A stretch of DNA of 64,000 bases, taken from the NCBI RefSeq assembly GCF_900167415.1, contig NZ_FUWU01000003.1, positions 1 through 64,000 of the forward strand, in the 5' to 3' direction. This stretch comes from Fibrobacter intestinalis (GTDB lineage: Bacteria; Fibrobacterota; Fibrobacteria; Fibrobacterales; Fibrobacteraceae). Made by a program: the position numbers and the translations under genes. The notes beneath the pieces are model-generated. The model was not told the origin of the DNA. It did no database searches and saw only the letters and a list, made by a program, of their open reading frames with translations. Shown in pieces: positions 384-41,170 of the stretch (its first letter is position 1; every line of letters starts with the position of its first letter).

Positions 384-1880
384 ATGCGAGTCACCTTTTT
401 AAATCCGCCTTATTTCCCTATGTTCAGCCGGGAATCGCGCAGCCCGTGCGTCACCAAATCCAGCACTCTCTATTGGCCCATGTTTTTGAGCTACGCCGCA
501 GGAACCGTCGAAGCCGATGGCAACCAGATTCAGCTCGTAGATAGTCCAGCGATGGATCTCGATTTGGAAAAAACGGTCGCCAAAATCCGGGATTTTCAAC
601 CGGAACTGATTATCGCCACGACAAGCACGCCGAGCATCATCAATGATTTGTCTGTCATCAAAACGTTAAAAGTTATGTTCCACGTCCCCACCGCCATTAT
701 GGGAACGCACGCGACAGCAGAACCGCTCGAAAGCCTGCAAATGGAACCGAATCTCGACTATGTGATTATCGGCGAAGCGGATTATACCGCACGGAATCTG
801 GTTCGGCTTCTCCGCGGTGAAATCGCCAAGCCCTCGGACATTGCCGGACTTGCTTATCGCACGCCGGACGGAGGCATCGACTTTCAACCCGAAGGTCCGA
901 AAATCGCCAACCTCGACGAAATCCCGTGGGTGAGCAAGACTTATTACAAGTATCTTTTTTCCTGCTACAAGCGTTATTTTTATGGAGCGAACCTCAACCC
1001 GATAATCGTGATTCTTTCGGGGCGCGGTTGCCCAAACCGTTGCAGCTATTGCGTGATTCCGCAAACGCTGAATGGTCACGTATTCCGGATGCGCTCGCCA
1101 AAAGACGTTGTGGACGAACTGGAATACATCAAATCGCATTTTGAAGATTTGGGCGAAGTCTTTTTTGAAGACGACACTTTTACGGCCAACCATAACCACG
1201 TCAAGGAAATCTGCGAAGAAATTCTGCGAAGGAAACTGAAAATCACTTGGAGCTGCAATGCCCGAGCCGACGTGCCTCTGGAACTTTTGAAACTGATGCA
1301 CAAAGCAGGCGGACGCGAAATGTGCGTGGGCTTTGAAAGCGCAAGTCCCGAAGTTTTGCAGAATATTCACAAGGGCATCAAGAACACCGACAAGGCCGTT
1401 CAATTTATGAAGGATTCCCGCAAAGCCGGATTTCTGGTGCACGGCTGCTTTATGGTCGGAAACCCCGGCGACACGCCAGAAACGCTCCGGATGACGCTGG
1501 ACTACGCCAAAAAGTTGAATCCGAATACCGCCCAATTTTATCCTATCATGGCTTATCCGGGAACAGAAGCCTATAAAGAAGCGCTGCAAAGCGGTGCTTT
1601 GGAATGTCGCGATTACAGTCAGTGGCTCGATAAGGACGGTTTTCACCGCACTACCATTCACCGTGGCAACCTTTCCAGCCAGGATCTGGTCGATTTCTGT
1701 GACAAGGCGCGCCGGGAATTCTACCTGCGACCGAGCTATATTTTCCGTCAGGGCATTATGGCCATCAAGAATCCCAAAGAACGCTACCGCGTATTTCGCG
1801 GATTCAGGACTCTAGTGAAGCACCTGTTCCGCAAGCACGGCGAAATTGCTGCTCGGCAAGCGCCGACCAACAAGCGCTGA
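384..1880 (+). CDS. B12-binding domain radical SAM protein
   Basis: This is a 498-residue cobalamin-dependent-type radical SAM enzyme. The first ~170 residues match the B12-binding-like Rossmann region that starts MRVTFLNPP. The iron-sulfur motif CPNRCSYC (Cx3Cx2C) follows at about residue 220, then the radical SAM TIM barrel with EVFFEDDTF and VGFESASPE. Members of this broad family act as methylases or rearrange lipids, hopanoids or small molecules; the substrate cannot be told from sequence. I chose ATG 384 over an in-frame TTG at 372 because GTGGGGG sits just upstream and because MRV is the usual start of the family. The gene stands alone, converging with the secreted-protein operon at 1887. 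Confidence 0.8.
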   Translation: MRVTFLNPPYFPMFSRESRSPCVTKSSTLYWPMFLSYAAGTVEADGNQIQLVDSPAMDLDLEKTVAKIRDFQPELIIATTSTPSIINDLSVIKTLKVMFHVPTAIMGTHATAEPLESLQMEPNLDYVIIGEADYTARNLVRLLRGEIAKPSDIAGLAYRTPDGGIDFQPEGPKIANLDEIPWVSKTYYKYLFSCYKRYFYGANLNPIIVILSGRGCPNRCSYCVIPQTLNGHVFRMRSPKDVVDELEYIKSHFEDLGEVFFEDDTFTANHNHVKEICEEILRRKLKITWSCNARADVPLELLKLMHKAGGREMCVGFESASPEVLQNIHKGIKNTDKAVQFMKDSRKAGFLVHGCFMVGNPGDTPETLRMTLDYAKKLNPNTAQFYPIMAYPGTEAYKEALQSGALECRDYSQWLDKDGFHRTTIHRGNLSSQDLVDFCDKARREFYLRPSYIFRQGIMAIKNPKERYRVFRGFRTLVKHLFRKHGEIAARQAPTNKR

Positions 1881-27629: not shown

Positions 27630-28712
27630 TTCCAACATTTTATAGCATCGATTGACATCGAATCTATCGTTCTTTATCAGCGGTTGCTCGCGATTAACAG
27701 CAAGTTTCATCAAGCCAATTTTTTCACACCATGGCTCAACATCATTAATTGTCAACGGATAAACATTATCAGTAATCGCAGTTTCTCTCGGCACAGCATC
27801 GCTTACAATGCAAGAAAGGCCGTTATACTGAGCCTCAACAAGAGTCATCGGGAAAGCCTCTCGAGTGGATGGCAACAGTAAAACATCCATAGCACAATAA
27901 AACGGAACTACATCTTTTTGAAGCCTCGCAAAAATAACGTTTTTATCAAATCCTAATTTTTTTACCGATTCCTGAATGTCTTGCCGTAGCGGACCATTTC
28001 CGACCAAAAGCAACCTGCTATTCGGATGCTCGCGACAGAATTTTTCAAATAAAGCGATTATAAATTTGTGGTTCTTTTCAGGGAAAAATCGCCCCACATG
28101 CCCCACCACAAAATCGTCATCTGAAATACCATAGCGGGCTCTGACTTCATTGCGTTGCTTTTCATTAAACTTAAACCGTTCCGGATCAATTGCATTGGGC
28201 AAGATTGTCACCTTGCCTTTCTTTACCGCACTTTTGCCCCAGCCGTTAATCGCCGCAGCTTCGCCGCAAGCAAGCCAATGAGTAGCAAATAATTTGCAAG
28301 GGATGCGCATTACAGCGCAAAGAAAATTTCTAGGCGCAGCCCGAAACGACACTTCCGTGGAGTAAGCCTGATGATGGTGGGCAATGCGTTTTTTTATGCC
28401 GGCTAGCATTGCTAAGAAACACACATAGCTATTCATATACCAGTCTAAATGGCTGTGAACAATATCATAACGGCCATGCCGAAAAATTTTAAACATCGCC
28501 CAAAGATGTTTTAGCGGATGATGGACCTTGTCAGGAATTTGGATGCAGTTAATATTTGCTTCTTGAAAACGTTCGAGAATTTGAGAATTAGGTTCGTATT
28601 GATACAACAAGTCAAAATGAATATCCGGCATACGGGAACAATAATTCAAAACGACCTGTTCCGAACCGCCTCCCACGATCCCATGCAAGACTTGACAAAC
28701 ACGAATAGTCAT
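27609..28712 (-). CDS. GT4-type glycosyltransferase
   Basis: About 367 residues from ATG 28712, beginning MTIRVCQVLHGIVGGGSEQVVL. GT-B fold: N-terminal domain with AHHHQAYSTEV and C-terminal donor domain with VGHVGRFFPEKNHKFII, LLLVGNGPLRQDIQ and the E-x7-E-type LLLPSTREAFPMTLVEAQYNGL. Retaining transferase for the polysaccharide. It is the only minus-strand gene in the locus and starts 25 bases from the divergent gene at 28738, an unusually small gap. Alternative starts upstream (28739, 28778) would overlap that gene. Confidence 0.85.
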   Translation of the reverse strand: MTIRVCQVLHGIVGGGSEQVVLNYCSRMPDIHFDLLYQYEPNSQILERFQEANINCIQIPDKVHHPLKHLWAMFKIFRHGRYDIVHSHLDWYMNSYVCFLAMLAGIKKRIAHHHQAYSTEVSFRAAPRNFLCAVMRIPCKLFATHWLACGEAAAINGWGKSAVKKGKVTILPNAIDPERFKFNEKQRNEVRARYGISDDDFVVGHVGRFFPEKNHKFIIALFEKFCREHPNSRLLLVGNGPLRQDIQESVKKLGFDKNVIFARLQKDVVPFYCAMDVLLLPSTREAFPMTLVEAQYNGLSCIVSDAVPRETAITDNVYPLTINDVEPWCEKIGLMKLAVNREQPLIKNDRFDVNRCYKMLELFYQVP

Positions 28713-28737
28713 CGAGTTAAAAATATATATTTCTCCC

Positions 28738-30489
28738 ATGCCTATAAAAAAAGCCTTGGCTTTTTCTGCCGCCATCAACCTCTTTTTCCTGGCCCTTTGC
28801 CTTGTTTTCGGCGATCTTAAATTCGGAGCTATCGATGATTACTTTATGGCGGCAAAGCTTACGGGAGCGTTGGGCACAGAATACAGCCCGCACTTGATTT
28901 TTGTGAACGCTATTTACGGTTACGCGCTGTTACCACTTTACCACCTGTTCCCCTCTATCGGGTGGTATTACATCGGCGAGATATTTTCCGTATTCCTCTC
29001 CTTTACCGTTATCGGTTATGTACTATTGCAGCGGTGTGGCGAACGTTGGGGAAGCATCCTTGCGACCCTTTTCACAGCCATGTTCGCCAGCGATTTTTAC
29101 TTGGTTGTACAATTTACGCAATGCGCTTCTATTTTGAGCGCCGCCGGAATGCTGCTTTTTGCATACGGAGTGGTGTCGAAAAACAAAGCAGAAGATTGTT
29201 GCGCTAGCCAAAGGCGGGCCTGCAATGACACATTAAAGCAATTCTTCCTAACGTTGTCAAAAATGAGGCCTTACCTCCCCTTTATTCTCGGCGTTTTTCT
29301 AATGCTGTGGGGTTCGGTAATGCGCTGGCAAGCCTTCTTGATGGGAATGCCTTTCTTTTGTCTCGGCATGTTCTTCATCCTTAAAGAATGTTGGAGGCGC
29401 AAGTGTCAAGTCATCGTGGGATTAGCCGTTCTATTCAGCGCGGCGTTTGCCATGCACCATTGGGATCGAAATCTATACAAGGCTCCAGAATTCGCAGATT
29501 TTATCAAGTTCCAAGGACCGCGAGTCACGTTTGGCGATGGCGGAAACTACAACCAAAACGCAGTGTATGAGGATGCCGAAGAATTGGGACTATCTGGAAA
29601 AGACTACCATATACTCACTCAGTGGACATTTTATGATACCAAAATATTCTCCGCAGATAGCCTAAAGCGATATTCCGACATTGTTTCAGCTTATCGCGAC
29701 AAGAATATTCCGGAACAAATTCCACGAAATCTGCTCAATTCCCTCGGCCACTCCCTAAACACACCCGTTTTTTGGACTTGGTTCATCTTATGCCTACTTG
29801 TTTACGCGACCCGGCCAAAAAAGTTCCTATACCTTTGGGCATCCTTAGTCCTAATTCTAGGGTTAATGGCCTATTTGCTTGACATGGGTCGTCTCGTTTA
29901 TCGCGTAGAAAGCGGATTTTGGTTGTACGCAGCTGTCCTCGCCGTTCCCCTGTTTGGGAAATTTAAACGAGAAATCCCTCATCAGTTAGTTTATATTACA
30001 CTATTTGCAATTGCGGCTATAAATCTATATTCTTACGCAACATCTGGAAAAATGGTTCGAGATCCAAACAGCGGACAAGAACGAACCCTTGCTATTGAAG
30101 ACTCCACGAATTATAAGCAAGTTTTCAATTACATCGATAGTCAGCCAAACAAGATATTCTTGCTAAGTATGAACGCCTTTATGCGTTTTAGCCATCACCG
30201 CAATCCGCCCTACTTGGCAGAACCAATAGGTATTTATCGCAACACGGTTTCCTTCGGGTATTGGACCCCCTACCTGCCAGAAGTCACAGAAGCCTTGGCG
30301 GATTACGGAATAACCAATCCTATCAAAGATGTGGTTCACGACAATGTCATCGTCTTGAACGAGCCACATTTAGCGGATTTTTTACAAAGGCATTATTACG
30401 ACAGCGTTGCCGTTGACACGTTAAAATCAATTGGCGAAATGACTTTTTTTAAATACAGGTTAGTCACAAAGCAGGAGGATAAGGAATAA
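28738..30489 (+). CDS. Multi-spanning membrane protein, GT-C-like
   Basis: 583 residues with about 10 membrane segments. The first loop FGAIDDYFMAAKLTG carries adjacent acidic residues after the first helix, as in GT-C glycosyltransferases (GtrII-like and PMT-like) that use polyprenyl-phosphate sugars at the outer face. The C-terminal ~130 residues are soluble and would be periplasmic. A substrate could come from the DPM-like enzyme at 13018. The stop TAA shares a base with the next ATG, so the two genes are coupled. Family placement is by topology, not by a firm motif. Confidence 0.6.
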   Translation: MPIKKALAFSAAINLFFLALCLVFGDLKFGAIDDYFMAAKLTGALGTEYSPHLIFVNAIYGYALLPLYHLFPSIGWYYIGEIFSVFLSFTVIGYVLLQRCGERWGSILATLFTAMFASDFYLVVQFTQCASILSAAGMLLFAYGVVSKNKAEDCCASQRRACNDTLKQFFLTLSKMRPYLPFILGVFLMLWGSVMRWQAFLMGMPFFCLGMFFILKECWRRKCQVIVGLAVLFSAAFAMHHWDRNLYKAPEFADFIKFQGPRVTFGDGGNYNQNAVYEDAEELGLSGKDYHILTQWTFYDTKIFSADSLKRYSDIVSAYRDKNIPEQIPRNLLNSLGHSLNTPVFWTWFILCLLVYATRPKKFLYLWASLVLILGLMAYLLDMGRLVYRVESGFWLYAAVLAVPLFGKFKREIPHQLVYITLFAIAAINLYSYATSGKMVRDPNSGQERTLAIEDSTNYKQVFNYIDSQPNKIFLLSMNAFMRFSHHRNPPYLAEPIGIYRNTVSFGYWTPYLPEVTEALADYGITNPIKDVVHDNVIVLNEPHLADFLQRHYYDSVAVDTLKSIGEMTFFKYRLVTKQEDKE

Positions 30490-31715
30490 TGAGAATTCTC
30501 TACCCCCTGATGGCAAGTGCTCTGATAACCATCGTCCCCTTTCTTTTGACTTTCGAAAAGGGGCAAGATATCGTTCGCGGACTATTCGGGTACGAATATT
30601 TTGCCATATTATTACTCATTATCTTTGTCAAGAGTAAACTGAGGTTCGCCTTGAGCGTGGCATGGCGGAAACAATTTCTGTGCACAATTTGCCTCGCTCT
30701 ATTATTCATCGCCCTCATTTCCATCGCATGGATGGACGTACAAAATCTTCTCGCTATCAAGGGTTGGAAAACCGGTTGGCATGGCGTTTTGCCCTTTATC
30801 ACTTGCAGTCTAGCCATCGCCATGACCTGGAAGACAAGACCTTTTAGTTTTAATGGTATATGCTTTGTATTATTTGTAGCGCTGATTCTTCATCTAGCCA
30901 GTTATAATCAATACGCTAATCAGCCCCTAGCTCAATTCCCTACCATTGATTATTTAGACCGCATAGCCCCCAAATCCATTCAACGGAAAGAAATATCCAA
31001 TGAATACCGCAATAAATATGTTATCACAGACTCCGTGACCATTACCCGTAATTACATTGATACAACCCGTAATAACGTAATCATTCTTGTCGAAAGCTGG
31101 GGCGCCCCCCTAGATATAAAACGGTTTGAAAAGCAATTGAAAATTTTTGAAGGCGTTCACTATATCGCAGGCATTCATAATCGCATGTATAGTCGCACTA
31201 GAACAGCCGAAAGAGAAGATTTGCTCGATGAGATTCACAGCGATTCAACGAAGAAAAAAGACTCAACATTCCTACCACAGTTTTTCTCTAGGCGCGGTTT
31301 CAGAACATCTTTCCTAGTTGGAAACGACAGCTTAAAACACCTGCGCAACAAGTACCTTTCCAAAATGGGATTTGATAATGTTCTTTACCTAAAAGGATTT
31401 AGTGATGCCGACATCGCCTCAAAAATTGACAGTATTCTTGCAGACTCAACACAGAAGAATTTTATAGCATGGACAACTTCAGATACCAAATTTCCTCTAG
31501 ACGCATTTTCCGACATGTATCACAGTAAAGCAGCCGATGTAGACTCGGTTTATACGCTACTCCTTAACGAATCGCTCCGCCAAATAGCCAGATTAGCGCA
31601 AAAATATCCAAAGACGCGTTTCATCATTCAAGGGGATCACAACCCGATTATATCACCAATAGAATTCCAAGAAAAATTCTATAGAAGATGGGTCCCCTTC
31701 GCAATTTTGAACTAA
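30489..31715 (+). CDS. Membrane-anchored sulfatase-fold protein (LTA-synthase/pEtN-transferase-like)
   Basis: 408 residues. Four or five N-terminal membrane helices precede an alkaline-phosphatase-fold domain. NNVIILVESWGAP is the first metal-binding segment. MYSRTRTAERE contains a Thr where the nucleophile is expected, and FIIQGDHNPIISP supplies the Asp-His metal ligands. Relatives transfer phosphoglycerol or phosphoethanolamine to surface glycans. The catalytic domain (about 230 residues) is shorter than usual, and the gene ends only 20 bases before the first silent pilin cassette, so its 3' end may have been trimmed or abutted by the array. Confidence 0.65.
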   Translation: MRILYPLMASALITIVPFLLTFEKGQDIVRGLFGYEYFAILLLIIFVKSKLRFALSVAWRKQFLCTICLALLFIALISIAWMDVQNLLAIKGWKTGWHGVLPFITCSLAIAMTWKTRPFSFNGICFVLFVALILHLASYNQYANQPLAQFPTIDYLDRIAPKSIQRKEISNEYRNKYVITDSVTITRNYIDTTRNNVIILVESWGAPLDIKRFEKQLKIFEGVHYIAGIHNRMYSRTRTAEREDLLDEIHSDSTKKKDSTFLPQFFSRRGFRTSFLVGNDSLKHLRNKYLSKMGFDNVLYLKGFSDADIASKIDSILADSTQKNFIAWTTSDTKFPLDAFSDMYHSKAADVDSVYTLLLNESLRQIARLAQKYPKTRFIIQGDHNPIISPIEFQEKFYRRWVPFAILN

Positions 31716-31735
31716 AACAGCATAAATTTACCACA

Positions 31736-32086
31736 ACCTACGTGAAGATGCAGCAGGCGTATATTTCTGAAGCGGGCACGGTTTTGGGAAACTACAAGAT
31801 TATCGGTTACTCTACTCCGGGAGAGGGAAATAAGACAACCAACTTTGATTACACCGAAGAAACTCGGTCGTGGGACAATAACACTGTTGCTCTGACTACC
31901 ACAGATATTTCGAACGCATGGAAGGCAGCGTCTCGTGTAAAGCTGAATGACTGTTCTAGCGGCAAGATTTGGTCGGTTTCCGTTAAAGCATCTAGTACAA
32001 ATGCTGGAGAGGCTTCGTTCACAGCAGTCGTTCCTGATGAGGGTTGCGACGCTTTGACTCCGTCGTTCACGAAAATCGGCAAGTAA
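31736..32086 (+). pseudogene. Silent pilin C-terminal cassette 1
   Basis: 116 codons starting TYVKMQQAYISEAGTVLGNY and ending TPSFTKIGK. It matches the pilin from residue 46 on (Y-V-K-x-Q-x-A-Y, central LNDCSSGKIWSV, terminal LTPSF-x-KIGK). It lacks the N-terminal methylation site and helix and a ribosome site; the frame upstream is only the tail of the preceding gene read out of frame. The border site is 31739-31752. Its terminator (32113-32132) is shared with cassette 2. Confidence 0.85.
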
Positions 32087-32112
32087 TCAACTTGCAGTCC
32101 TAATAATCAAAA

Positions 32113-32132
32113 AGAGCCCTCCAAGGGGGCTC
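32113..32132. terminator. Terminator between cassettes 1 and 2
   Basis: Hairpin AGAGCCC-tccaa-GGGGGCTCT followed by TTTTTG on the plus strand and preceded by an A-rich run, so it can end transcription from either side. Lies between two convergent cassettes. Confidence 0.8.
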
Positions 32133-32159
32133 TTTTTGTATTTGTGTTTTGCTTGGCGA

Positions 32160-32420
32160 TTACTTGCCAATCTGATTCCAGTTCGGAGTCAGCTGAATGC
32201 AATCAGCAGAGAGAGTGGAGGGTGTAAAGGTTGCTTCACCGGCAGCAGAACCTTCTGAAACAGTTATCGTCCAATTGGCAGCAGCGTTGCAATCATTCAG
32301 CTTGGCCTTGTTAGACGCAGAAAAACCGGTTGCCCCTGTAGCAATTGCTATAGTATTGTTTGTCCAACCGCTTGCATCAGTATAGGAAAAATTATTCGTA
32401 GAAGACGTTACTGATCCGCT
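32160..32420 (-). pseudogene. Silent pilin cassette 2, 5' part lost
   Basis: Ends LTPNWNQIGK and carries LNDCNAAANWTITVSEG and NFSYTDASGWTNN, closely matching cassettes 4 and 6. Similarity stops near 32420 after TSSTNNF; the conserved Tyr-Val-Lys border and the first ~30 codons are missing and replaced by unrelated A/T-rich sequence. It could therefore no longer recombine through the border motif. Confidence 0.8.
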
Positions 32421-32510
32421 TTTTTCAAAAAAAAACGTTTGGGTGAAAAACGAAGTTTTTTGTATCCAACCCTTGATTTTATGCCATTTCAGGTTTGTTT
32501 TAAGAAAAAC

Positions 32511-32536
32511 GGCTCCACACATTGTTGTGTAGAGCC
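32511..32536 (-). terminator. Hairpin downstream of a possible pilin remnant
   Basis: GGCTCCACACA-ttg-TTGTGTAGAGCC stem at 32511-32536. On the minus strand it follows the short remnant ending at 32545 and is followed by a T-containing stretch (GTTTTTCTTAAAAC), consistent with a terminator. Confidence 0.6.
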
Positions 32537-32544
32537 AAAAGAAT

Positions 32545-32610
32545 TTACATATTCGTGACCGAGACTTTCCAGTCAGCTGTTGTTGTGGGATTCTTTTCTA
32601 TAGTCTGCGG
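32545..32610 (-). pseudogene. Possible 3' remnant of another pilin-like gene
   Basis: The last ~20 codons before a TAA at 32545-32547 read LPQTIEKNPTTTADWKVSVTNM. ADWKVSV resembles the AKWQLDV/SSWTITV strand of the cassettes, and a terminator hairpin follows directly, as with the other cassettes. Too short to be sure. Confidence 0.3.
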
Positions 32611-32622
32611 CAAAGATTTCTA

Positions 32623-33354
32623 TTAGAGATGCGTTTTTTCCATCTTATCGCAAAGAGCCAAAATCGAAGGTCTCATTCTAAATGACAGTCCGGCAAGTTC
32701 AACCGTTTCCAACAGTGGAACTAATTCTGCAAATGAATTTTCCGTCAAACTTTCAGCACATTTCCGCATTTTTTCGATTAGCCCCTTTATATCTTTGGCC
32801 GCCACGATGTTTTTATAAGATCGGGAGTTTTTTAATCGTCTATGCAAAATTTCCATTTGTGGCTCAGTCTTGAATAGAGATTCATATTGATAAACATCGT
32901 AAAAATCTCTCATCAATTCACGTTCATTCCAAGCTGCAATTTTGTGTGCAAACGCAACCCCAGGCTCCATCACCCGGATTATACGGGCAGGATAACCATA
33001 CGGAATACTTAACAGCGATGATGACATTGCTATAGACGGGCATTCCATTTCAACATTGATTTCAATTTGAGCTTGTTGTCCTGCATAATCCACGATTATG
33101 CGTAGCGCTTTTGAATTCATTGATATTCTGAACATCAATCCGTCGACTAGCGAAAGCGCCTCCTCAACAAGAGTCTTCACATCTTTTTTGGAATCGAAAG
33201 GTATGAAAACGTAATCAACATCATTTGTGTATCGGGGACTGTGCATTAAACGGAGAGACATTCCGCCTTTCAAAATTGCGGAATTACCAAATTTTTGTGC
33301 AAAAAAATCTATAATCCACGACAAAAGAGCTTCGGTACTTTTAAATGTTTCCAT
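32623..33354 (-). CDS. AbiEii-type nucleotidyltransferase toxin
   Basis: 243 residues of the nucleotidyltransferase AbiEii/AbiGii family. Key motif: ILKGGMSLRLMHSPRYTNDVDY (G-G-x-S/T-L-R followed by R-x-x-x-D-x-D). Later FAHKIAAWNERELMRDFYDVYQY (K...R-D-x-D/Y) is also conserved. AbiEii proteins transfer nucleotides to tRNA or otherwise block growth, giving phage abortive infection as part of type IV-like toxin-antitoxin pairs. Its start overlaps the end of the AbiEi-like gene by 14 bases. It lies between pilin cassettes 2 and 3. Confidence 0.85.
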   Translation of the reverse strand: METFKSTEALLSWIIDFFAQKFGNSAILKGGMSLRLMHSPRYTNDVDYVFIPFDSKKDVKTLVEEALSLVDGLMFRISMNSKALRIIVDYAGQQAQIEINVEMECPSIAMSSSLLSIPYGYPARIIRVMEPGVAFAHKIAAWNERELMRDFYDVYQYESLFKTEPQMEILHRRLKNSRSYKNIVAAKDIKGLIEKMRKCAESLTENSFAELVPLLETVELAGLSFRMRPSILALCDKMEKTHL

Positions 33355-33946
33355 AAACAGTATTCCTTACAAATGCTTTAAATTTCGGATTAGCATAACG
33401 TTCCAAATATGAATCCATCGTCTCTTTTGACAAAGCAGAAAAATTAATGTCTTGGAAAATATTAAAGTAAAATATTTTTTTGTGTTGATAAAAATAGAGT
33501 GTATCAAGGACCGCTTTTTCTGCATTTGCCATTCGCACCCCATTGTTGAGAATCGCTGTTCCGAAAAACAAGTTCTTTGATATCCTGGCGTATGAAAGAT
33601 TTACTTCGCCTTTATATTCGCTAGCCTTTGAAGTGACAATACAACTGACCAAAAATGGACTTTCCGTTCCAATCAATTTATAGTACGCTAAAGCCGAACC
33701 GAATGAAATGTACGAATCCGTACGAACCTTAGCCGAAAGAATCATTGGATCAAAATTTTGCGTTATATAGATTCCTCGAGAATAGCGCTTTAATAAACCG
33801 GCTTCTTCAAATTGCTTGATTTTAATCCAAAGCATCTGCTGACTTGATATATCGAATAGCGAGCTCAACTCCGATAGCGAAAATACACCGCCAATTTTCG
33901 GGGCGAATTCCAATAATTTTTGAGCATGTCCTAGCATCTTTTTCAT
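33341..33946 (-). CDS. AbiEi-type antitoxin/transcription regulator
   Basis: About 201 residues from ATG 33946. An N-terminal winged helix (FSLSELSSLFDISSQQMLWIKIKQFEEAGLLKRYSRGIYI) is followed by the AbiEi antitoxin body with MANAEKAVLDTLYF. AbiEi represses its own operon through inverted repeats. Two TCTAGA palindromes lie at 33950-33955 and 33978-33983, immediately upstream. It is coupled to the AbiEii gene. Confidence 0.8.
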   Translation of the reverse strand: MKKMLGHAQKLLEFAPKIGGVFSLSELSSLFDISSQQMLWIKIKQFEEAGLLKRYSRGIYITQNFDPMILSAKVRTDSYISFGSALAYYKLIGTESPFLVSCIVTSKASEYKGEVNLSYARISKNLFFGTAILNNGVRMANAEKAVLDTLYFYQHKKIFYFNIFQDINFSALSKETMDSYLERYANPKFKAFVRNTVYGNI

Positions 33947-33947
33947 G

Positions 33948-33986
33948 TTTCTAGAAAATATACTAAAAATTAGATTATCTAGAAAT
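33948..33986 (-). promoter_or_regulatory. Candidate AbiEi operator
   Basis: A perfect palindrome TTTCTAGAAA (33948-33957) and a second TCTAGA palindrome (33978-33983), with the half-spaced sequence rich in A/T, flank the presumed promoter of the AbiE pair. Paired inverted repeats are what AbiEi-type repressors bind. Confidence 0.5.
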
Positions 33987-34056
33987 ATGAAAATGTTGGA
34001 CAAAAATTAAAAATCTTACCGAAAACAACGAAAGTCGCTATGGATTTTGAACACAT

Positions 34057-34433
34057 CCTACGTGAAGATGCAGGAAGCATACTTCTCTGAAAGCAATTAT
34101 GTTGGAAATTGGGCAATTATTGGCTATACCGCTCCTGGATCGGGAACCGCAACAAGCGGATCTACAACAAATTTTGATTACGCACAGGGTGGTACGTATG
34201 ACGCAGGTAATACGATTGCAACAAATCCCTCTGGAACTGAAGTTTGGACTGCTACCGCAAAGGCAAATCTGAACGACTGCGCCGCTGGCAAATCCTGGGG
34301 CGTTCAAGTGACAGTTTCTGACGGCTCTAAGGTTTCGTTCGCCACCGGTATGAGCGATGAAACTAATTGCTTGACGTTAACGCCGAATTTCAAGAATATT
34401 GGTACCGGCACATATACTGCTAGCGGATCCTAA
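34057..34433 (+). pseudogene. Silent pilin C-terminal cassette 3
   Basis: About 125 codons starting SYVKMQEAYFSESNYVGNWA and ending NIGTGTYTASGS, a different C-terminal end from the KIGK type. The central LNDCAAGKSWGVQV aligns with the expressed pilin. Border site 34059-34072. There is no leader or Shine-Dalgarno; an in-frame TTG at 34047 is the only possible start. Almost identical to cassette 5. Confidence 0.85.
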
Positions 34434-34466
34434 TGTCGATTTATATTAAATCTGGCAAATACAAAA

Positions 34467-34490
34467 GAACCTTCCCTATTGGGAAGGTTC
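34467..34490. terminator. Terminator shared by cassettes 3 and 4
   Basis: Perfect stem GAACCTTCCC-tatt-GGGAAGGTTC with T-rich sequence on both outer sides (CTTTTCACTTT on the plus strand, plus-strand AAAA before it). It can act in both directions between the convergent cassettes. Confidence 0.85.
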
Positions 34491-34517
34491 TTTTCACTTT
34501 AACAAATGTGTTAGCTA

Positions 34518-34889
34518 TTACTTGCCAATCTGATTCCAGTTCGGTGTCAGCTGTAAACAATCTTGCCCAAGCGTGTTCGGAGTGAATGTTGCTTCACCAG
34601 CAGCAGTGCCCGGCGCAACAGTAATGGTCCACGAGGACGATTGTTCACAATCGTTTAATTTGGCAATGTTTGTAGCGGTAAAACCCACTACAGAAGAGCT
34701 TCCTGTCAAAGCAACTGTATTACCTGAATAACCAGTTGCATCTTTGTATTCAAAATAATTCGTTTTGGAGGATGCACCGCCTGTTGCTTCGCTAGCATTT
34801 GTATTGTGTCCAGGCCCCTTGTATCCAATAACAGACCAAGTTCCAATCGCTACTGATTCCGAAACATAAGCCTGCTGCAACTTCACGTA
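34518..34889 (-). pseudogene. Silent pilin C-terminal cassette 4
   Basis: About 123 codons starting YVKLQQAYVSESVAIGTWSV and ending LTPNWNQIGK. Contains LNDCEQSSSWTITVAPG. Border site 34876-34889 (preceded by T instead of C). Nearly identical to cassette 6. The 5' border is 27 bases from the stop of the ATPase gene, which reads the same way, so read-through transcription but not translation is conceivable. Confidence 0.85.
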
Positions 34890-34915
34890 AGAATGCGTTC
34901 GTAAGATGGCGAAAA

Positions 34916-36304
34916 TCACCCTTCGCGAATCATTTCATCGAACGTCACTAAAGCAACATCATCTCGATTCTTTGCGATTTGAATGAATTTTTTTGTATAT
35001 CCAGATTTGCTGAAGAAAATGTAGTGTTTGTTCTTTGCGTTTAGGAGTTTTGACTTTTCAATCAGGGCGTTAAGAACGTCAACATCTGTCAGTTTATTTG
35101 TCCACTTGCATTCGCAAAATAGCAAGTCTTTTTCACCCAAGCCCAAGATATCTATTTCTTCTTCTCTCCGCTCTTTTGCGTTAGTCCCCCACCAGCGGCC
35201 CATGGTATGGGGCAAGAACGGGAGTTGCGTCAAGCCTTTTTCTGTATACAGGTATTGCAAGCATATTTCTTCGAATACGTGCCCCATATACTCGTTGAGT
35301 TTCCCTTTTACGAAATTTTTGTAGACGGCGTCTCCGATTCCCCTATTTATGTTTGTCTGGTTTTCCCAAACAAACGAAAACCAGAAACGGTACATCAAGT
35401 CGTTGATTATGTATATGGACTTGCGGCTGTTCTTTTCTGTGGCTGGAATTTCCCTTCGGATTATGCCAAGTTCCATGAGAGCTGACAAAACATTGCTTGC
35501 CGCGCCCGTTTCAAGCCCCGCGTGTGTAGATATTTCGTTTAAACGGCTTGCCCCTTGTGCAATAGCTGTTATGACGGCGTTGTAGGTGGCAGGAGCACGC
35601 ATTTCCTGTTTCAGCAAGTTCAAAGGCTCCTCAAACAGGCGTCCTCCAGGTCTGAACATCAGCTTAACGATGTTGCCGTCCAAGTCCTCATGGTTGCTAA
35701 GATGGGAATAGTATTCAGGAACGCCCCACAGTGCGCCGTAAAGCAGAGCCTGTTCCTCGGCAACGAAGTTCTCGCAAAGTTCACGGCTTTCAAAAAAACT
35801 GAAAGGCAAAATCTTTAGTTGCGAAGTCTTGCGCCCATAAAGGGGGCTCTTGTAGCCAAGGACCTGATTTTCCATAAAACTCATGGAAGATCCGCAAAGA
35901 ATCAGCATCAATTTCGATTTTTTCCACGCATGGTCGATATGCTTTTGAAGCAAAGAAGGGAATGATGCTTCGGATTTGGCGAGGTAGGGGTATTCATCAA
36001 TAACAAGGACTATTCTTTCGTTTTGGGCAAGAGAATCAAGATACGAAAGAACTTTTTCAAAAGAATCGAAAGAAGATTCTTTTGCATCTGAATGTTCGAG
36101 GACTGCCTTGGATAGTTGCGACAAGTTCTCCGAGACCGAAGCTTCGATCCCTGTAAAAAAGATGGTTTTCTTCCCCTTGCAGAACTCGTTTAGCAACATA
36201 GTCTTGCCGACACGCCTGCGTCCATAGACAACGGCAAATTCAAATTTGCCAGATTCATAAAGTCCGGCTAAGGAATCTAATTCTTTTTTACGACCACAAA
36301 ACAT
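34916..36304 (-). CDS. ATPase_2/DUF234 family ATPase with nuclease-like C-terminus
   Basis: 462 residues. FCGRKKELDSLAGLYESG and Walker A VVYGRRRVGKTML, Walker B IVLVIDEYPYL and sensor LILCGSSMSFM define the archaeal-type AAA ATPase_2 family. The C-terminal DUF234 region has EEIDILGLGEKDLLFCECKW, a PD-(D/E)xK-like core (D...ECK). Often found on mobile DNA; no firm function is known. It lies alone between cassette modules A and B. Confidence 0.8.
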   Translation of the reverse strand: MFCGRKKELDSLAGLYESGKFEFAVVYGRRRVGKTMLLNEFCKGKKTIFFTGIEASVSENLSQLSKAVLEHSDAKESSFDSFEKVLSYLDSLAQNERIVLVIDEYPYLAKSEASFPSLLQKHIDHAWKKSKLMLILCGSSMSFMENQVLGYKSPLYGRKTSQLKILPFSFFESRELCENFVAEEQALLYGALWGVPEYYSHLSNHEDLDGNIVKLMFRPGGRLFEEPLNLLKQEMRAPATYNAVITAIAQGASRLNEISTHAGLETGAASNVLSALMELGIIRREIPATEKNSRKSIYIINDLMYRFWFSFVWENQTNINRGIGDAVYKNFVKGKLNEYMGHVFEEICLQYLYTEKGLTQLPFLPHTMGRWWGTNAKERREEEIDILGLGEKDLLFCECKWTNKLTDVDVLNALIEKSKLLNAKNKHYIFFSKSGYTKKFIQIAKNRDDVALVTFDEMIREG

Positions 36305-36404
36305 ATTTTACTCATTCTTAATTTACTAAATCAAAAATTAGCAAATTATTTTGTGCTAGTCAAGACATTTTGTGAAAAATGACCTCTTTTCTAAAAAAAC
36401 ACAT

Positions 36405-36781
36405 CCTACGTGAAGATGCAGGAAGCATACTTCTCTGAAAGCAATCATGTTGGAAATTGGACAATTATTGGCTATACCGCTCCTGGATCGGGAACCGCAA
36501 CAAGCGGATCTACAACAAATTTTGATTACGCACAGGGTGGTACGTACGCAGGTAATACGATTGCAACAAATCCCAGTGGAACTGAAGTTTGGACTGCTAC
36601 CGCAAAGGCAAATCTGAACGACTGCGGTGCTGGCGATACCTGGGGCGTTCAAGTGACAGTTTCTGACGACTCTAAGGTTTCGTTCGCCACCGGCATGAGC
36701 GATGAAGATAATTGCTTGACGTTAACGCCGAATTTCAAGAATATTGGTACCGGCACATATACTGCTGCTAGCGGATCCTAA
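36405..36781 (+). pseudogene. Silent pilin C-terminal cassette 5
   Basis: Begins SYVKMQEAYFSESNHVGNWT and ends NIGTGTYTAASGS. It differs from cassette 3 at a handful of codons (Tyr/His, Ala/Thr, a one-codon deletion in GGTY, a duplicated Ala near the end). Similarity to cassette 3 starts only about 9 bases before the border motif (36407-36420), so the duplication has a sharp 5' edge. Confidence 0.85.
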
Positions 36782-36814
36782 TGTCGATTTATATTAAATC
36801 TGGCAAATACAAAA

Positions 36815-36838
36815 GAACCTTCCCTATTGGGAAGGTTC
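36815..36838. terminator. Terminator shared by cassettes 5 and 6
   Basis: Same GAACCTTCCC-tatt-GGGAAGGTTC hairpin as between cassettes 3 and 4, with T-rich flanks on both strands. Confidence 0.85.
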
Positions 36839-36865
36839 TTTTCACTTTAACAAATGTGTTAGCTA

Positions 36866-37239
36866 TTACTTGCCAATCTGATTCCAGTTCGGTGTCAGCT
36901 GTAAACAATCTTGCCCAAGCGTGTTCGGAGTGAATGTTGCTTCACCAGCAGCAGTGCCCGGCGCAACAGTAATGGTCCACGAGGACGATTGTTCACAATC
37001 GTTTAATTTGGCAATGTTTGTAGCGGTAAAACCCACTACAGAAGAGCTTCCTGTCAAAGCAACTGTATTATCTGAGTAACCAGTTGCATCTTTGTATTCA
37101 AAATTATTCGTTTTGGAGGATGCACCGCCTGTTGCTCCGCTAGCATTTGTATTGTCTCCAGGCCCCTTGTATCCAATAACAGACCAAGTTCCAATCGCTA
37201 CAGCCTCGGAGACATACGCCTGTTGCAACTTCACGTAGG
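36866..37239 (-). pseudogene. Silent pilin C-terminal cassette 6
   Basis: Begins SYVKLQQAYVSEAVAIGTWSV and ends LTPNWNQIGK. Near copy of cassette 4, with changes mostly in the first third (SEA for SES, GDN for GHN, NN for NY). Border site 37224-37237. The frame extends upstream as MPNRVPLLLFFSS, which is not pilin-like and lacks a ribosome site. Confidence 0.85.
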
Positions 37240-37319
37240 ATGAAAAAAAGAGAAGCAAAGGAACTCTGTTCGGCATACTTATATTTGTTTTTTCAAAAAC
37301 GATAATCTATATTCTAAAC

Positions 37320-37538
37320 ATGACGGACAAGTACAAAATTCCTTACGTAAACATGTGCATTCGCCTTTTTGCTAAGCGATTCCAGTTGCCGCTTCAGGGG
37401 GCGGCGGATTACTTGTGCCGATTTAAGGGTATCCGATTTCTAGACGAATCTTATTCTACAGAGCACCTTCTGCCGGTGGAAGATACCTTAAATGATTTGG
37501 TTGCCGTTTGCAAGAATAACGGGGGCGCAATCGGATGA
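37320..37538 (+). CDS. DUF3791-type small protein
   Basis: 72 residues: PYVNMCIRLFAKRFQLPLQGAADYLCRFKGIRFLDESY...TLNDLVAVCKNNGG. This matches the pattern of DUF3791, small helical proteins that accompany DUF3990. Its stop overlaps the DUF3990 start (ATGA). Probably an antitoxin-like or chaperone partner; function not shown. Confidence 0.7.
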   Translation: MTDKYKIPYVNMCIRLFAKRFQLPLQGAADYLCRFKGIRFLDESYSTEHLLPVEDTLNDLVAVCKNNGGAIG

Positions 37539-38011
37539 TTCTTTATCACGGAACGAATTGCGATTTCACAATAATTGACCTAGAGAAAACCAAACTGTAC
37601 AAAGATTTCGGCAAAGGTTTTTATGTAACCGACATTCGACAGCAAGCTTGTGAACTCGCCAAAACTCGGAGCCGCATTTGGGGAGGCGCACCCGTTGTCC
37701 AAGAATATGAATTCGATGAAACAGTCCTTCAATCAAATGGTTTACGAGTTTTGCGCTTTGATAAGGTTTGTGTAGAATGGGCCGAGTTTATTTATAAAAA
37801 CCGTAGCAGGTACACAAACTTCACTCATGATTACGATATTGTTATCGGACCCATTGCAGATGACGGCGTGGCCTATTTACTAAACTTGTATGAGGAGGGT
37901 TTGAGAACTTTAGAAGAGCTAGCTAAGGAACTTGAGTATAAAAATTTGAATAGCCAGTACTGTTTCTTGACGAAAAGGGCGATTTCCTTTTTGCGGAGAG
38001 TAAAGAAATGA
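37535..38011 (+). CDS. DUF3990 protein (ADP-ribosyltransferase-like fold)
   Basis: 158 residues. MILYHGTNCDFTIIDLEKT, DFGKGFYVTDIRQQACELA and YDIVIGPIADDGV are the conserved blocks of DUF3990, which is placed in the ADP-ribosyltransferase clan (YHGT as the His-Tyr-type NAD site). In many gut bacteria it sits between two DUF3791 genes, as here. A toxin role is plausible but inferred. It lies between cassettes 6 and 7. Confidence 0.75.
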   Translation: MILYHGTNCDFTIIDLEKTKLYKDFGKGFYVTDIRQQACELAKTRSRIWGGAPVVQEYEFDETVLQSNGLRVLRFDKVCVEWAEFIYKNRSRYTNFTHDYDIVIGPIADDGVAYLLNLYEEGLRTLEELAKELEYKNLNSQYCFLTKRAISFLRRVKK

Positions 38012-38223
38012 CGACAGCTCAATCAGAATCGTTGGTCTCTAGAATTGTAGAAAAAAATGTTCAATTGTTAATGAACGATTTTTCCATAGATATGGAATCC
38101 GCGTTTGGATTTGTCTATAAATCTAGAGTATTTGAAGCTCTGAACGATCCTGAAACTGGCCTACGGGCGCGAAGCCCCGATTATATTTACGAACTCATTA
38201 GAGAAGAATTTTTAAAGAAATAA
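38008..38223 (+). CDS. Second DUF3791-like small protein
   Basis: 71 residues: ESLVSRIVEKNVQLLMNDFSIDMESAFGFVYKSRVFEALNDPETGLRARSPDYIYELIREEF. Overlaps the DUF3990 stop by four bases (ATGA), completing a three-gene coupled operon. Confidence 0.7.
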   Translation: MTTAQSESLVSRIVEKNVQLLMNDFSIDMESAFGFVYKSRVFEALNDPETGLRARSPDYIYELIREEFLKK

Positions 38224-38256
38224 TCATTTGTCACTATGTTGCTACAATTGTGCAAA

Positions 38257-38280
38257 AAGGGCCTCCAAATGGAGACCCTT
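38257..38280 (-). terminator. Terminator of cassette 7
   Basis: Stem AAGGGCCTCC-aaat-GGAGACCCTT. The same hairpin and flanks follow the expressed pilin at 39561-39586, so the similarity of cassette 7 to the expressed gene continues through its terminator. Confidence 0.8.
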
Positions 38281-38303
38281 TGAAATGTTATGTGCAGCAG
38301 ACC

Positions 38304-38619
38304 TTACTTGCCGATTTTACTGAAGGTCGGAGTAAGAGCTTCCCCACAAGCAGGTGGGGTTGCTGTATACGTTACACTATTTCCATTATCAGCACCTGAA
38401 ACATCCAACTGCCACTTAGTGTGTATCACGCAGTCATTTAAAGCAACATTTGATGTCGCGTTCCAAGCATCGTCCTTTCCAGCTGTGACAGCGACAGTTC
38501 CGTCCTCGGTATCACCCGCATATGTAAAGTTGGTTGTTGCATTCATAACATATCCAATTTTTTTCCAACCACCAATCATATTGGATTCCGATACATATGC
38601 ATCCTGCAACTTCACGTAG
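38304..38619 (-). pseudogene. Silent pilin C-terminal cassette 7, near copy of the expressed end
   Basis: YVKLQDAYVSESNMIGGWKK... ending LTPTFSKIGK. It differs from residues 47-150 of the expressed pilin at roughly a dozen positions, clustered in the last two thirds (for example AIGAKW/VIHTKW, VVGAANG/VSGADNG). Border site 38605-38618. No leader. Same strand as the expressed gene, so crossing over between them would delete the DUF3800 gene, while gene conversion would only change the pilin. Confidence 0.88.
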
Positions 38620-38774
38620 AATGCGGCTGTTTTGGGAGTACTTTATGGCAAATTTACAAAAAAGCCTTTTCCATCAATCATTATTTATGTATATTAATAC
38701 ATAGAGTTGGGTAATACTGCCTTTTTGTGGTATGATGGACTTTGTTCCGCCCGACTTTTTTTTATGGAGAGAGA

Positions 38775-39467
38775 ATGTATCTGCTATATGTTGATGATTC
38801 GGGACTTGCTACTGACAAAAATTGCAAACATTGTGTACTTGCCGGACTCGCCATAAGGGATACCAAGACTTTTTATGTTCAACAGGACATTGAAAGAATT
38901 CTCGCCAAACACACAGATTGTAAGAATCTTGAACTTCATGGAACGCGTATGCGTTCAGGTAAAGGAGAGTGGCGCTCCATTCCGAAAGAAACTCGAGAAG
39001 GGTTGTTGAAAGAGATTCTAGGCTATATAGCAGCTCATTATCCAAATTACTTTATTTTATTTGGCGCAGTATTAGACAAGACTTGTCAAATTGATGTTGC
39101 TCATGATGAAGAGCTTTTTACGCAAATTACAAGCAGATTTGATATGTTCTTGAAGCGTAGGTTTGCTAAGAAACAGGTCCCCGAGCGGGGGATTGCCATT
39201 TTTGACAAGTCAACTTCAGAGCAAAAATTCCAGCAATGGTCCCAAGCATTCCAAATCGAGGGGAATCATTGGGGCAACACTCTTGTAAATTTTGCTGAAG
39301 TTCCGTTATTTTTAGATTCCAAAATGTCACGACTTATTCAATTGGCTGATTTGGTGGCTTATGCGCTTTTTCGCAAATATGAATTTGGGGACGATTCTTA
39401 CAGTTCCATTATTCAGGGATGTTTTGATAAGGATAAAGGACAAGAGTACGGTCTTTATATCCGATGA
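38775..39467 (+). CDS. DUF3800 family protein
   Basis: About 230 residues from ATG 38775, preceded by GGAGAGAG. MYLLYVDDSGLATDKNCKHCVLAGLAI (D-D/E-S-G) and DSKMSRLIQLADLVAYALFRKYEFGD (Q-x-A-D) are the DUF3800 signatures. The fold is RNase H-like, and the acidic residues suggest a nuclease. Frequently linked to mobile elements and defence. Lies between cassette 7 and the expressed pilin. Confidence 0.8.
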   Translation: MYLLYVDDSGLATDKNCKHCVLAGLAIRDTKTFYVQQDIERILAKHTDCKNLELHGTRMRSGKGEWRSIPKETREGLLKEILGYIAAHYPNYFILFGAVLDKTCQIDVAHDEELFTQITSRFDMFLKRRFAKKQVPERGIAIFDKSTSEQKFQQWSQAFQIEGNHWGNTLVNFAEVPLFLDSKMSRLIQLADLVAYALFRKYEFGDDSYSSIIQGCFDKDKGQEYGLYIR

Positions 39468-39560
39468 TTCTTTTTATTAAAAACAGCCTGATAGGATTAA
39501 CTTGACAGGACGTTTTTGTATTTTTTACAAATCATTTGTTCGTTGTTTTAGTTATGCATA

Positions 39561-39586
39561 AAAGGGCCTCCAAATGGAGACCCTTT
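39561..39586 (-). terminator. Terminator of the expressed pilin gene
   Basis: AAAGGGCCTCC-aaat-GGAGACCCTTT stem just after the pilin stop (39609). Same element as behind cassette 7. Confidence 0.8.
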
Positions 39587-39608
39587 GAAATGTTATGCGT
39601 ACTAGACC

Positions 39609-40061
39609 TTAGTTGCCGATTTTGTCGAATGTCGGGGTGAGAGCTTCCCCACAAGTAGGTGTAGTTGCTGTATAATTTACGCTATTTCCATTGGCAGCAC
39701 CTACAACATCCAACTGCCACTTTGCGCCTATTGCGCAGTCATTCAACGCAACATTTGATGTCGCGTTCCATGCATCTGTTTTTCCGTCGGTGACAGCAAC
39801 AGTTCCGTCCTCAGTATCACCCGCATATGTAAAGTTGGTTGTTGCTTTCATGACATATCCAATTTTTTTCCAACCACCAATCATATTGGATTCCGATACA
39901 TACGCATCCTGCAACTTCACGTAGGTTCCAGCAGCAGGGCCGACTTCGGAAGCTTTGGATTTCGCAATCATACCGAACAGTTTCGGAACAGCGACAGCGG
40001 CGAGGATACCGATGATGACCACGACGACCATCAATTCAATGAGGGTAAAACCTTTCTTCAT
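39609..40061 (-). CDS. Type IV pilin, intact (expressed) copy
   Basis: 150 residues. MKKGFTLIELMVVVVIIGIL is a textbook class III signal: prepilin peptidase cuts after Gly4, Phe5 is methylated, Glu9 is in place, and the hydrophobic helix spans about residues 5-27. Residues 1-45 are the constant part; from Thr46-Tyr47 on the sequence is shared with the silent cassettes. The globular part has one disulfide-like Cys pair (LNDCAIG / TTPTCGEALTP). Subunit of a pilus or pseudopilus for adhesion, motility or DNA uptake. AAAGGAG precedes the ATG. No pilus assembly genes are in the window. The only gene of the array that has a promoter, a ribosome site and a leader. Confidence 0.93.
   Translation of the reverse strand: MKKGFTLIELMVVVVIIGILAAVAVPKLFGMIAKSKASEVGPAAGTYVKLQDAYVSESNMIGGWKKIGYVMKATTNFTYAGDTEDGTVAVTDGKTDAWNATSNVALNDCAIGAKWQLDVVGAANGNSVNYTATTPTCGEALTPTFDKIGN
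39910..39923 (-). repeat. Border motif TACGTGAAGWTGCA, expressed-gene copy
   Basis: The 14-base motif is present at 31739-31752, 34059-34072, 36407-36420 (plus; W = A) and 34876-34889, 37224-37237, 38605-38618, 39910-39923 (minus; W = T). Codons Tyr-Val-Lys and the Gln start are invariant even at wobble positions, while the next codons (Ser, Glu, Ala) vary freely at wobble positions. Similarity between different cassettes begins here. Candidate recombination site. Confidence 0.75.
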
Positions 40062-40333
40062 GATAAACTCCTTTGTTAAGGTTTGAAGGTTTTGTTGTTT
40101 TCTTCAACACCGATAATATAAATGCTTTGTTTAGGAAAAGCAATAGGTTTGTCATTCTTTTGTCATTTTTTAGTCATGCATTTGGAAAATTTTGCGGAAT
40201 TTTGCAAATTTCAGCGTTTTTTCATATTCCAAATTAGAATAGAAATCTTTAAAATTTTGTTTGCACACCTCAATTTTGGGCAATTCTCCTTATTTTTCGG
40301 CAACCTAAACTTCAAAAAAAAAAGGACTTTTCT
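40062..40333. promoter_or_regulatory. Divergent promoter region of pilin and recombinase
   Basis: 272 bases. On the minus strand a TATATT-like -10 lies about 17 bases after TTGCTT, upstream of the pilin. Two direct repeats TTTGTCATT occur at 40148-40156 and 40159-40167, one helical turn apart, with a related TTAGTCAT after them; they may bind an activator. No sigma-54 consensus and no guanine-quadruplex motif was seen. On the plus strand AAAGGA precedes the recombinase ATG. Confidence 0.5.
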
Positions 40334-41170
40334 ATGCTATTTTTCCCCGCAGCCTACGCGTTCATCCGTAATAACGACAACGAGTTGGAACCGACTACCA
40401 TCAAAACGTATTTCTGGAACCTGAAAAAGCTGGAGTCTTTTCACCCCGGGCTCCAATGCGAAGAAATAGACAAGGCGTTTATTCATTCTTACAAGGCGCA
40501 TTTGCAGGAACAGGGCAATAAGCCGGCCACGGTGAACAAGGCGCTTTCCGTATTCCGCATTTTTTTGAACAAACTTATTGCAAACGGTTTCAAAATGGAC
40601 AATCCTTTTGCCGGCTTTCGCATTGGCAGGGTTTATTCGCGAAGGGGATTTTTAACGATACGGGAATTGCGGAATCTGTTCTGGAATTACACAGACAGCA
40701 AGAACATTTTGGATTCGCGGGAAAGCGAAGCGATGCGCGTTTTTCTGTTCAGCTGTTTCACGGGGTTGCGGTACAGCGATTTGAAATCACTGGATGCGAT
40801 GGAGATTGCCGACTGGAAGATTCGCAAGCAGACGCACAAGACCGGCGAAGCAGTCTATATTCCCATTCCGGTGCAAGCCAGGCTTTTAATCGAAAAACGA
40901 CCGACGCGAGGTCCCGTTTTTCATATTGCCGAAAACACGCAATTCAACCGGAAATTGCGTAGCGCCGCCCAAAAACTCGGCTGCAACCGTTATTTGCATT
41001 GCCATTTGGCAAGGCACACTTTTGCGACGACCTGCATCACTATCGGCATTCCGCTTCCCGCTACGGGAAAATTACTCGGACACAGGAATTTGGCGACCAC
41101 GTTAATTTATGCAAAATACGTCGATGCCTTTTTGGACAAGGAGATGAAAAAATTCAACCGTTTGCGCTGA
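40334..41170 (+). CDS. Tyrosine recombinase next to the pilin array
   Basis: 278 residues. N-terminal SAM-like core-binding domain (TTIKTYFWNLKKLESFHPGL...NKPATVNKALSVFRIFLNKLI, residues 15-95) and catalytic domain with all expected residues: Arg in FTGLRYSDLKSL, Lys in the beta-hairpin KQTHKTGEAVYI, His-x-x-Arg in CHLARHTFATTC, His in LLGHRNLATTLIYAKYV and the Tyr nucleophile in that last block. It is of the Bacteroidetes-like integrase group that includes invertases such as Mpi/Tsr, and of the same superfamily as the Rci shufflon recombinase. It is short and lacks an arm-binding domain. Divergent from the pilin gene, 272 bases away. A role in inverting pilin cassettes is inferred. Confidence 0.88.
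   Translation: MLFFPAAYAFIRNNDNELEPTTIKTYFWNLKKLESFHPGLQCEEIDKAFIHSYKAHLQEQGNKPATVNKALSVFRIFLNKLIANGFKMDNPFAGFRIGRVYSRRGFLTIRELRNLFWNYTDSKNILDSRESEAMRVFLFSCFTGLRYSDLKSLDAMEIADWKIRKQTHKTGEAVYIPIPVQARLLIEKRPTRGPVFHIAENTQFNRKLRSAAQKLGCNRYLHCHLARHTFATTCITIGIPLPATGKLLGHRNLATTLIYAKYVDAFLDKEMKKFNRLR

Follow-up and report, generated by a model that had tools for sequence, protein, structure and literature searches.

Does the tyrosine recombinase gene beside a type IV pilin gene of Fibrobacter intestinalis serve to exchange the end of that pilin? In the herbivore gut, members of the genus Fibrobacter are among the major degraders of cellulose, and a switch of the pilin head, if real, would vary adhesion, phage sensitivity or antigenicity within populations. 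The adherence of Fibrobacter to cellulose has been connected with type IV pilins (PMC3079729). Our literature search, which left most subscription journals uncovered, found no earlier report of the system described here and no shufflon in the phylum. From the window, the whole stretch of 64,000 nucleotides analyzed here, and from related genomes, we conclude that the gene at 40334 to 41170 very likely codes for the recombinase that operates a pilin shufflon in the chromosome, with the reservation that there are neither activity data nor within-strain variants.

A complete tyrosine recombinase is encoded divergently from a pilin gene

The gene lies on the plus strand and encodes a protein of 278 amino acids. 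The preliminary description had called it a complete tyrosine recombinase with all catalytic residues, and open reading frame, strand, and residues are as it gave them, with Pfam in agreement (Phage_integrase, E = 1.5e-13; Phage_int_SAM_5, E = 7e-12). The residues R146, K169, H224-x-x-R227, H250, and Y259 show no variation across 14 aligned family members, and both the R-K-H-R-H-Y set and the fold of the tyrosine recombinase superfamily are present in the product. The protein has two domains, its closest solved structures being integrases and XerA/XerD, and ends in a tail of 19 residues past Tyr259 with a single short helix of low confidence. The NCBIfam equivalog models do not support a housekeeping XerC or XerD identity (83.7 bits against a cutoff of 335 for XerC, 75.6 against 330 for XerD), and for a pilin invertase of the Piv/IS110 type there is no IS110-type Pfam match, integrase domains being found instead. 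The genome of the window (G000) contains other tyrosine recombinases, with 15 matches, weak or strong.

A gap of 272 bp separates the recombinase gene from the pilin gene, which runs from 40061 to 39609 on the minus strand. The recombinase gene had been described as divergent from the only intact pilin; the divergence is confirmed, while "only intact" applies to that pilin family in that genome.

Silent pilin cassettes share a border site with the expressed pilin gene

The expressed type IV pilin (39609 to 40061, minus strand) carries the N-terminal methylation motif PF07963 and consists of a constant N terminus (39924 to 40061) and a variable end (39609 to 39923), with the expressed border site (CC followed by TACGTGAAGTTGCAGGATGC) at 39904 to 39925 on the same strand. 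Silent cassettes, which begin at such a border and lack an N-terminal pilin helix of their own, lie to the left. Cassette c1 (31739 to 32086, plus strand) has its border at 31739. Cassettes c2 (34059 to 34433, plus strand; border 34059) and c3 (34518 to 34889, minus strand; border 34889) stand tail to tail, as do c2' (36407 to 36781, plus strand; border 36407) and c3' (36866 to 37237, minus strand; border 37237). Just inside its border at 38618, cassette c4 (38304 to 38618, minus strand) is 97 to 98% like the expressed copy, and its left flank is unrelated. A truncated eighth cassette (32160 to 32522, minus strand) covers profile positions 29 to 112 only and has no border. The window contains duplications of two cassette blocks, and the cassette copies have 3' ends and terminators in common.

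The border, TACGTGAAG[A/T]TGCA, occurs in seven copies on both strands and is confined to the pilin locus. Searching the whole 3.29-Mb genome for CCTACGTGAAGNTGCA with at most one mismatch likewise yielded seven copies, all within 31.7 to 39.9 kb, three on the plus and four on the minus strand. The longer border pattern, read backward as a control, had no match in the window genome, and no border site was found in the viral contigs that we searched. The other relative of this pilin in the window genome, on contig C78, has no pilin N terminus; at L054:7472-7900 (G000:C78), a pilin-head domain carries TATGTAAAG at the border position, and an apparent lipoprotein signal replaces the pilin N terminus.

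We observed that a complete pilin of 150 to 170 amino acids without a stop results whichever of the seven borders the constant N terminus (MKKGFTLIEL...GPAAGT) is joined to. The inversion geometry that had been predicted for the locus is correct; all seven joins are in frame, and a simulated inversion between 36407 and 39923 yields an intact switched pilin. In the structure model of the pilin (pLDDT of 88), whose nearest solved folds are, with weak E values, type IV pilins of Neisseria and Myxococcus, the border residue Y47 lies within a helix spanning residues 40 to 58, in the second half of helix α-1, so that an exchange at this point is predicted to replace the whole globular head.

These features point to a mechanism in which the recombinase would recognize a short site, made up of a core and one arm that are at the same time the first codons of the cassette, and would exchange the DNA between two inverted copies of it. 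Inversion between the expressed site (39923, minus strand) and a plus-strand site (31739, 34059, or 36407) would fuse a new cassette in frame to the constant N-terminal 46 residues and, in the same step, park the old pilin end at the far site. Cassettes oriented like the expressed one (34889, 37237, and 38618) would become usable after a further inversion. The part swapped would comprise the end of helix α-1 together with the head.

The border is constrained at the DNA level

Across 65 silent sites from many genomes, we observed that positions 1 to 15 (TACGTGAAGTTGCAG) are nearly invariant. The noncoding left side of the same sites shows a weaker consensus at positions -9 to -1 (about GCCGCAACC), an A/T stretch at -15 to -12, and otherwise nothing. 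The core and the one arm, TACGTGA followed by AGTTGCAG, encode Tyr-Val-Lys-Leu-Gln (YVKLQ). We therefore compared codon usage at the border with that in the cassette bodies, using 100 distinct cassettes and only loci with the recombinase. The border Val codon is GTG in 86 of the 100 cassettes, compared with 15% in the bodies; the Tyr codon is TAC in 95 of 100 (41% in the bodies), and the Leu codon is TTG in 79 of 86 (33%). Pilins in genomes without an orthologue of the recombinase use mixed codons at these residues. Protein constraint does not explain this codon choice, and the constraint acts at the DNA level.

Variants of the core are common to the sites within one genome, namely, TACGTA in G022, TACATC in L169, and TAYGTGCA in G016, G031, G063, and L166, the exception being G001, where both TACGTA and TACGTG are present. 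This within-genome agreement fits the notion that two sites need to match for recombination. In a palindrome test, arms around a center at position 4 (a 7-bp core, TACGTGA) paired above shuffled arms with a z score of 8.3. A center at 7.5 scored as well (z = 8.7), and the core limits TACGTGA are accordingly a proposal and not a result.

Cassette arrays follow the recombinase across the family

It had been suggested to check whether recombinase and cassettes co-occur across genomes, and we found that they do. Among 61 genomes of the family, with orthologues defined by at least 49% identity (the copy in G021 is split over two contig ends), 23 of the 25 genomes with an orthologue have at least two sites, compared with 0 of the 36 without one (Fisher's exact test, p = 8e-15). 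One genome without a detected orthologue, G008, has a single cassette at a contig end; counting this lone cassette as an array changes the second figure to 1 of 36 (p = 1.8e-13). The pattern holds within genus g2 (18 of 19 versus 0 of 11; p = 2e-7), and it should be kept in mind that the genomes are not independent of one another. No array was found in G017 and G076, which have an orthologue. In genus g6, as in other members of the family that lack the enzyme, a check for cassettes showed full pilin genes only, some of them cut by a contig start.

The orthologue lies directly beside cassettes in 15 of the 25 genomes. In at least six (G001, G033, G065, G070, G073, and G078), it lies away from the array and would act in trans, so that adjacency, as the preliminary description had it, is not the rule. 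This separation, together with the further tyrosine recombinases in the genome, leaves room for the explanation that the sites are shuffled by another recombinase, either XerC/XerD-like or a 43% identical paralogue, and that the gene at 40334 to 41170 is merely a frequent neighbor. We consider this unlikely: it is the orthologue of this gene that follows the arrays in the above counts (the other recombinases were not compared one by one), the paralogue is found only in G000, G006, and G072, and Xer-type enzymes are general housekeeping proteins, which are unable to explain the co-occurrence pattern. The assignment of the exchanges to this particular enzyme is nevertheless inferred; it rests on co-occurrence, in the absence of activity data. 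The copies of the paralogue in these three genomes are at L002/L053 (G000:C111:691-1506), L037, and L105.

Related genomes differ by rearrangements at the borders

All rearrangement comparisons are between species, with one genome per species. G001, from the same genus, has a recombinase 79% identical to that of the window and a pilin array (L106) on another contig. We found that L106 contains segments of the window at 94 to 97% DNA identity in a different arrangement. The flanks of the window sites 31739, 36407, 37237, and 38618 are identical to flanks in L106 at 60 of 60 nucleotides up to TACGT; past the border, identity drops to 43 to 57% over the next 80 nucleotides, i.e., these flanks have different cassettes in G001. 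A fifth flank, at 34889, is common to both, displaced by one base at the border, and has a related cassette behind it. Relative to the window, segments B (containing the ATPase gene) and C (containing the DUF3990 gene) are inverted in G001, and segment D (DUF3800) has the same orientation. Every junction in both genomes consists of one flank and one cassette. A breadth-first search that allowed only inversions between opposite sites converted the window order into the G001 order of shared segments in three steps; segment E, which is absent from G001, was left out, and both cassette-pair segments were treated as interchangeable.

Two further comparisons show movement at the same borders. In G003, the site L042:9657 has no cassette behind it and shares an identical left flank with window site 37237; moreover, the segment 37229 to 38623 shows 97.1% identity over its whole length between the borders, much more than the remainder of the locus, while the recombinases of the two genomes are only 62% identical. 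A second lineage offers an independent case: of the genomes G065 and G078, one has a 2-kb block with a border on each side at the expressed end, the other has this block at the far end, and the flanks stay put. The proposed reading as a shufflon-type system thus gains support from rearrangements at the predicted borders in G000/G001, G000/G003, and G065/G078, as well as from co-occurrence, with catalysis remaining an inference. Three of the features by which a shufflon is recognized are present, namely, multiple sites in both orientations, a constant N terminus with alternative C termini, and segments in more than one order, the last of these between species only. The comparisons being between species, the rearrangements prove that exchange at the sites occurred over evolutionary time; they do not prove switching in culture. 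Switching within a population is inferred, and we regard it as very probable that the bacteria shuffle the face of their pili.

An alternative that needs no dedicated enzyme is RecA-dependent gene conversion, as at Neisseria pilE/pilS, where silent cassettes are copied by homologous recombination; the integrase would then be incidental. Segment D is what such a process could produce, as G000 and G001 differ in it by the whole cassette body and its 3' end is conserved, and the common 3' ends and terminators of the cassette copies in the window point in the same direction. However, the identical 60-nucleotide flanks switch partners within a core of 5 to 9 bp, which is not long enough for homologous recombination; entire segments, unrelated cargo included, are inverted and relocated; the arrays track the recombinase; and the synonymous codons of the core are fixed. 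Gene conversion as the principal explanation is therefore improbable. Cassette replacement beyond simple inversion does occur, and the replaced body of segment D and the duplicated cassette blocks indicate that gene conversion, duplication, horizontal exchange, or other processes also act on the locus along with the proposed inversions.

Window positions 28711 to 40245, compared with L106, are about 94 to 97% identical to G001 in the array and in the two genes to its left. For the recombinase region, DNA identity to G001 is about 70%. Because the array is far closer to G001 than the recombinase region is, the locus has probably passed from one species to another recently, as judged from these identities.

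The recombinase is a resident chromosomal gene of Fibrobacteraceae

Orthologues at 49% identity or more were found only in Fibrobacteraceae, plus one contig binned as Bacteroidales; where relatives with the gene bear a name, they are Fibrobacter genomes. The latter (L178) is 5.3 kb long, carries a 71% identical recombinase fragment, and is probably a misplaced Fibrobacter contig. The next nearest relatives are the Fibrobacteraceae paralogue (40 to 43%) and then integrases from other phyla, mostly Bacteroidota (28 to 37%). In many genomes, the orthologue has argB, argD, and a radical-SAM gene as neighbors (names assigned by sequence inspection). The radical-SAM gene of the window (384 to 1877) is about 38 kb from the recombinase gene, with surface-polysaccharide-type genes and the array in between, whereas in G001 the two genes are adjacent and this stretch is missing. 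The content of window positions 1880 to 40000 includes an endoglucanase-like protein, an ABC transporter, glycosyltransferases, and a sulfatase-like protein.

It had been granted that the proposal would fail if the same integrase were widely found as an ordinary element integrase without cassettes, and this is not what we see: from their distribution and neighborhoods, the orthologues are a Fibrobacteraceae-restricted clade of resident chromosomal genes. An ordinary mobile-element integrase lying next to the pilin by chance is hardly credible, even though the protein belongs to the integrase superfamily and the stretch of about 38 kb between radical-SAM gene and recombinase is absent in G001, given the conserved chromosomal places in many genomes, the restricted clade, and the lack of any element genes seen beside the orthologues.

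The system resembles the R64 shufflon with an enzyme outside the Rci family

The R64/IncI shufflon with its recombinase Rci has a tyrosine recombinase, several inverted sites, a constant pilin N terminus, and exchangeable C termini (PMC11852207), as does the Fibrobacter locus, and the tail-to-tail cassette pairs (34059/34889 and 36407/37237) repeat the layout of the R64 segments. The R64 sfx sites consist of a conserved core and right arm with a variable left arm (PMC11852207), and the Fibrobacter sites show the same asymmetry of fixed core and right arm and loose left arm. Kinship with Rci, to which the preliminary description had pointed, was not borne out: in a single comparison with R64 Rci (384 amino acids; sequence from NC_005014), the recombinase is 24% identical over 225 amino acids (E = 0.008), it sits on a very long branch in the tree, and it lacks the extra C-terminal domain that Rci has beyond its catalytic domain (PMC11852207). 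The system works like the R64 shufflon, but with an enzyme that does not belong to the Rci family. A compact tyrosine recombinase with an asymmetric site and without an Rci-type C-terminal domain makes it directly testable how inversion comes to be preferred over deletion. Further differences are that the Fibrobacterota system is chromosomal and not on a plasmid; that the protein with the exchangeable ends resembles a small pilin of the main type (150 to 170 amino acids), whereas the R64 target is PilV, a large tip adhesin of the type IV pilus (PMC11852207); and that unrelated genes, largely of the toxin-antitoxin type, lie between the Fibrobacter sites and the enzyme may be far away.

Other systems share single aspects. 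Piv of Moraxella is related to IS110-type enzymes and is not a tyrosine recombinase. In Moraxella bovis and Moraxella lacunata, site-specific inversion by Piv also switches a type IV pilin (PMC4073114, PMC11868660), but with two pilin genes and one invertible segment. Neisseria pilE/pilS likewise combines a single expressed pilin with numerous silent cassettes truncated at the 5' end, but varies it by RecA-driven gene conversion; inversion plays no part, and there is no dedicated recombinase acting at a fixed short site of exchange. The target of PsrA in Streptococcus pneumoniae is hsdS, a restriction-modification specificity gene. PsrA is a chromosomal tyrosine recombinase that varies the population by inversion between inverted repeats (PMC7096588), and target, sites, and enzyme are all other than those of Fibrobacter.

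Toxin-antitoxin and defense-type genes lie between the sites

The genes between the sites are unrelated to pilins. In the window, they are an AbiEi/AbiEii toxin-antitoxin pair (32623 to 34003, minus strand); an ATPase_2/DUF234 ATPase (34916 to 36304, minus strand; PADLOC PDC-S27), whose segment is inverted in G001; a DUF3791-DUF3990 module with a 71-amino-acid open reading frame (37320 to 38223, plus strand), on a border-to-border segment also present in G001 (inverted, 94%) and G003 (97%); and a DUF3800 protein (38742 to 39467, plus strand), on a segment 97% identical in G001 with the same orientation and a different cassette body. Other arrays carry HipBA, AbrB/PIN, PIN, a YoeB-type toxin, and AAA_14-DUF4143 proteins, and most arrays that we examined contain at least one toxin-antitoxin or defense-candidate gene. 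Loci with cargo of the toxin-antitoxin or defense type include L042, L110, L112, L114, and L117. Such arrays can break or scramble assemblies.

For DUF3990, 8 of 54 copies lie inside arrays, which make up an estimated ∼0.2% of the genomes (nominal p = 2e-13, for DUF3990 only). Because homologous arrays are not independent, an enrichment of DUF3990 is likely but not proved. Large chromosomal integrons also have toxin-antitoxin modules between tyrosine recombinase sites. The Fibrobacter arrays are similar to them in this respect but have no attC-type cassettes; the Fibrobacter cassettes are pilin ends, translated in frame with a single constant gene. The analogy to large integrons makes it a plausible hypothesis that the cargo may penalize deletion between direct sites. 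More tentatively, and with doubts that we would not set aside at present, the locus may represent a chromosomal pilin diversification system of the whole Fibrobacteraceae, a shufflon with integron-like cassette traffic, in which segments of pilin ends and toxin-antitoxin or defense genes would be inverted and would also move between species as site-bounded units, with the toxin-antitoxin genes guarding against deletion. The traffic between species is suggested by segment 37229 to 38623, for which the identity with G003 is so much higher than that of the recombinases.
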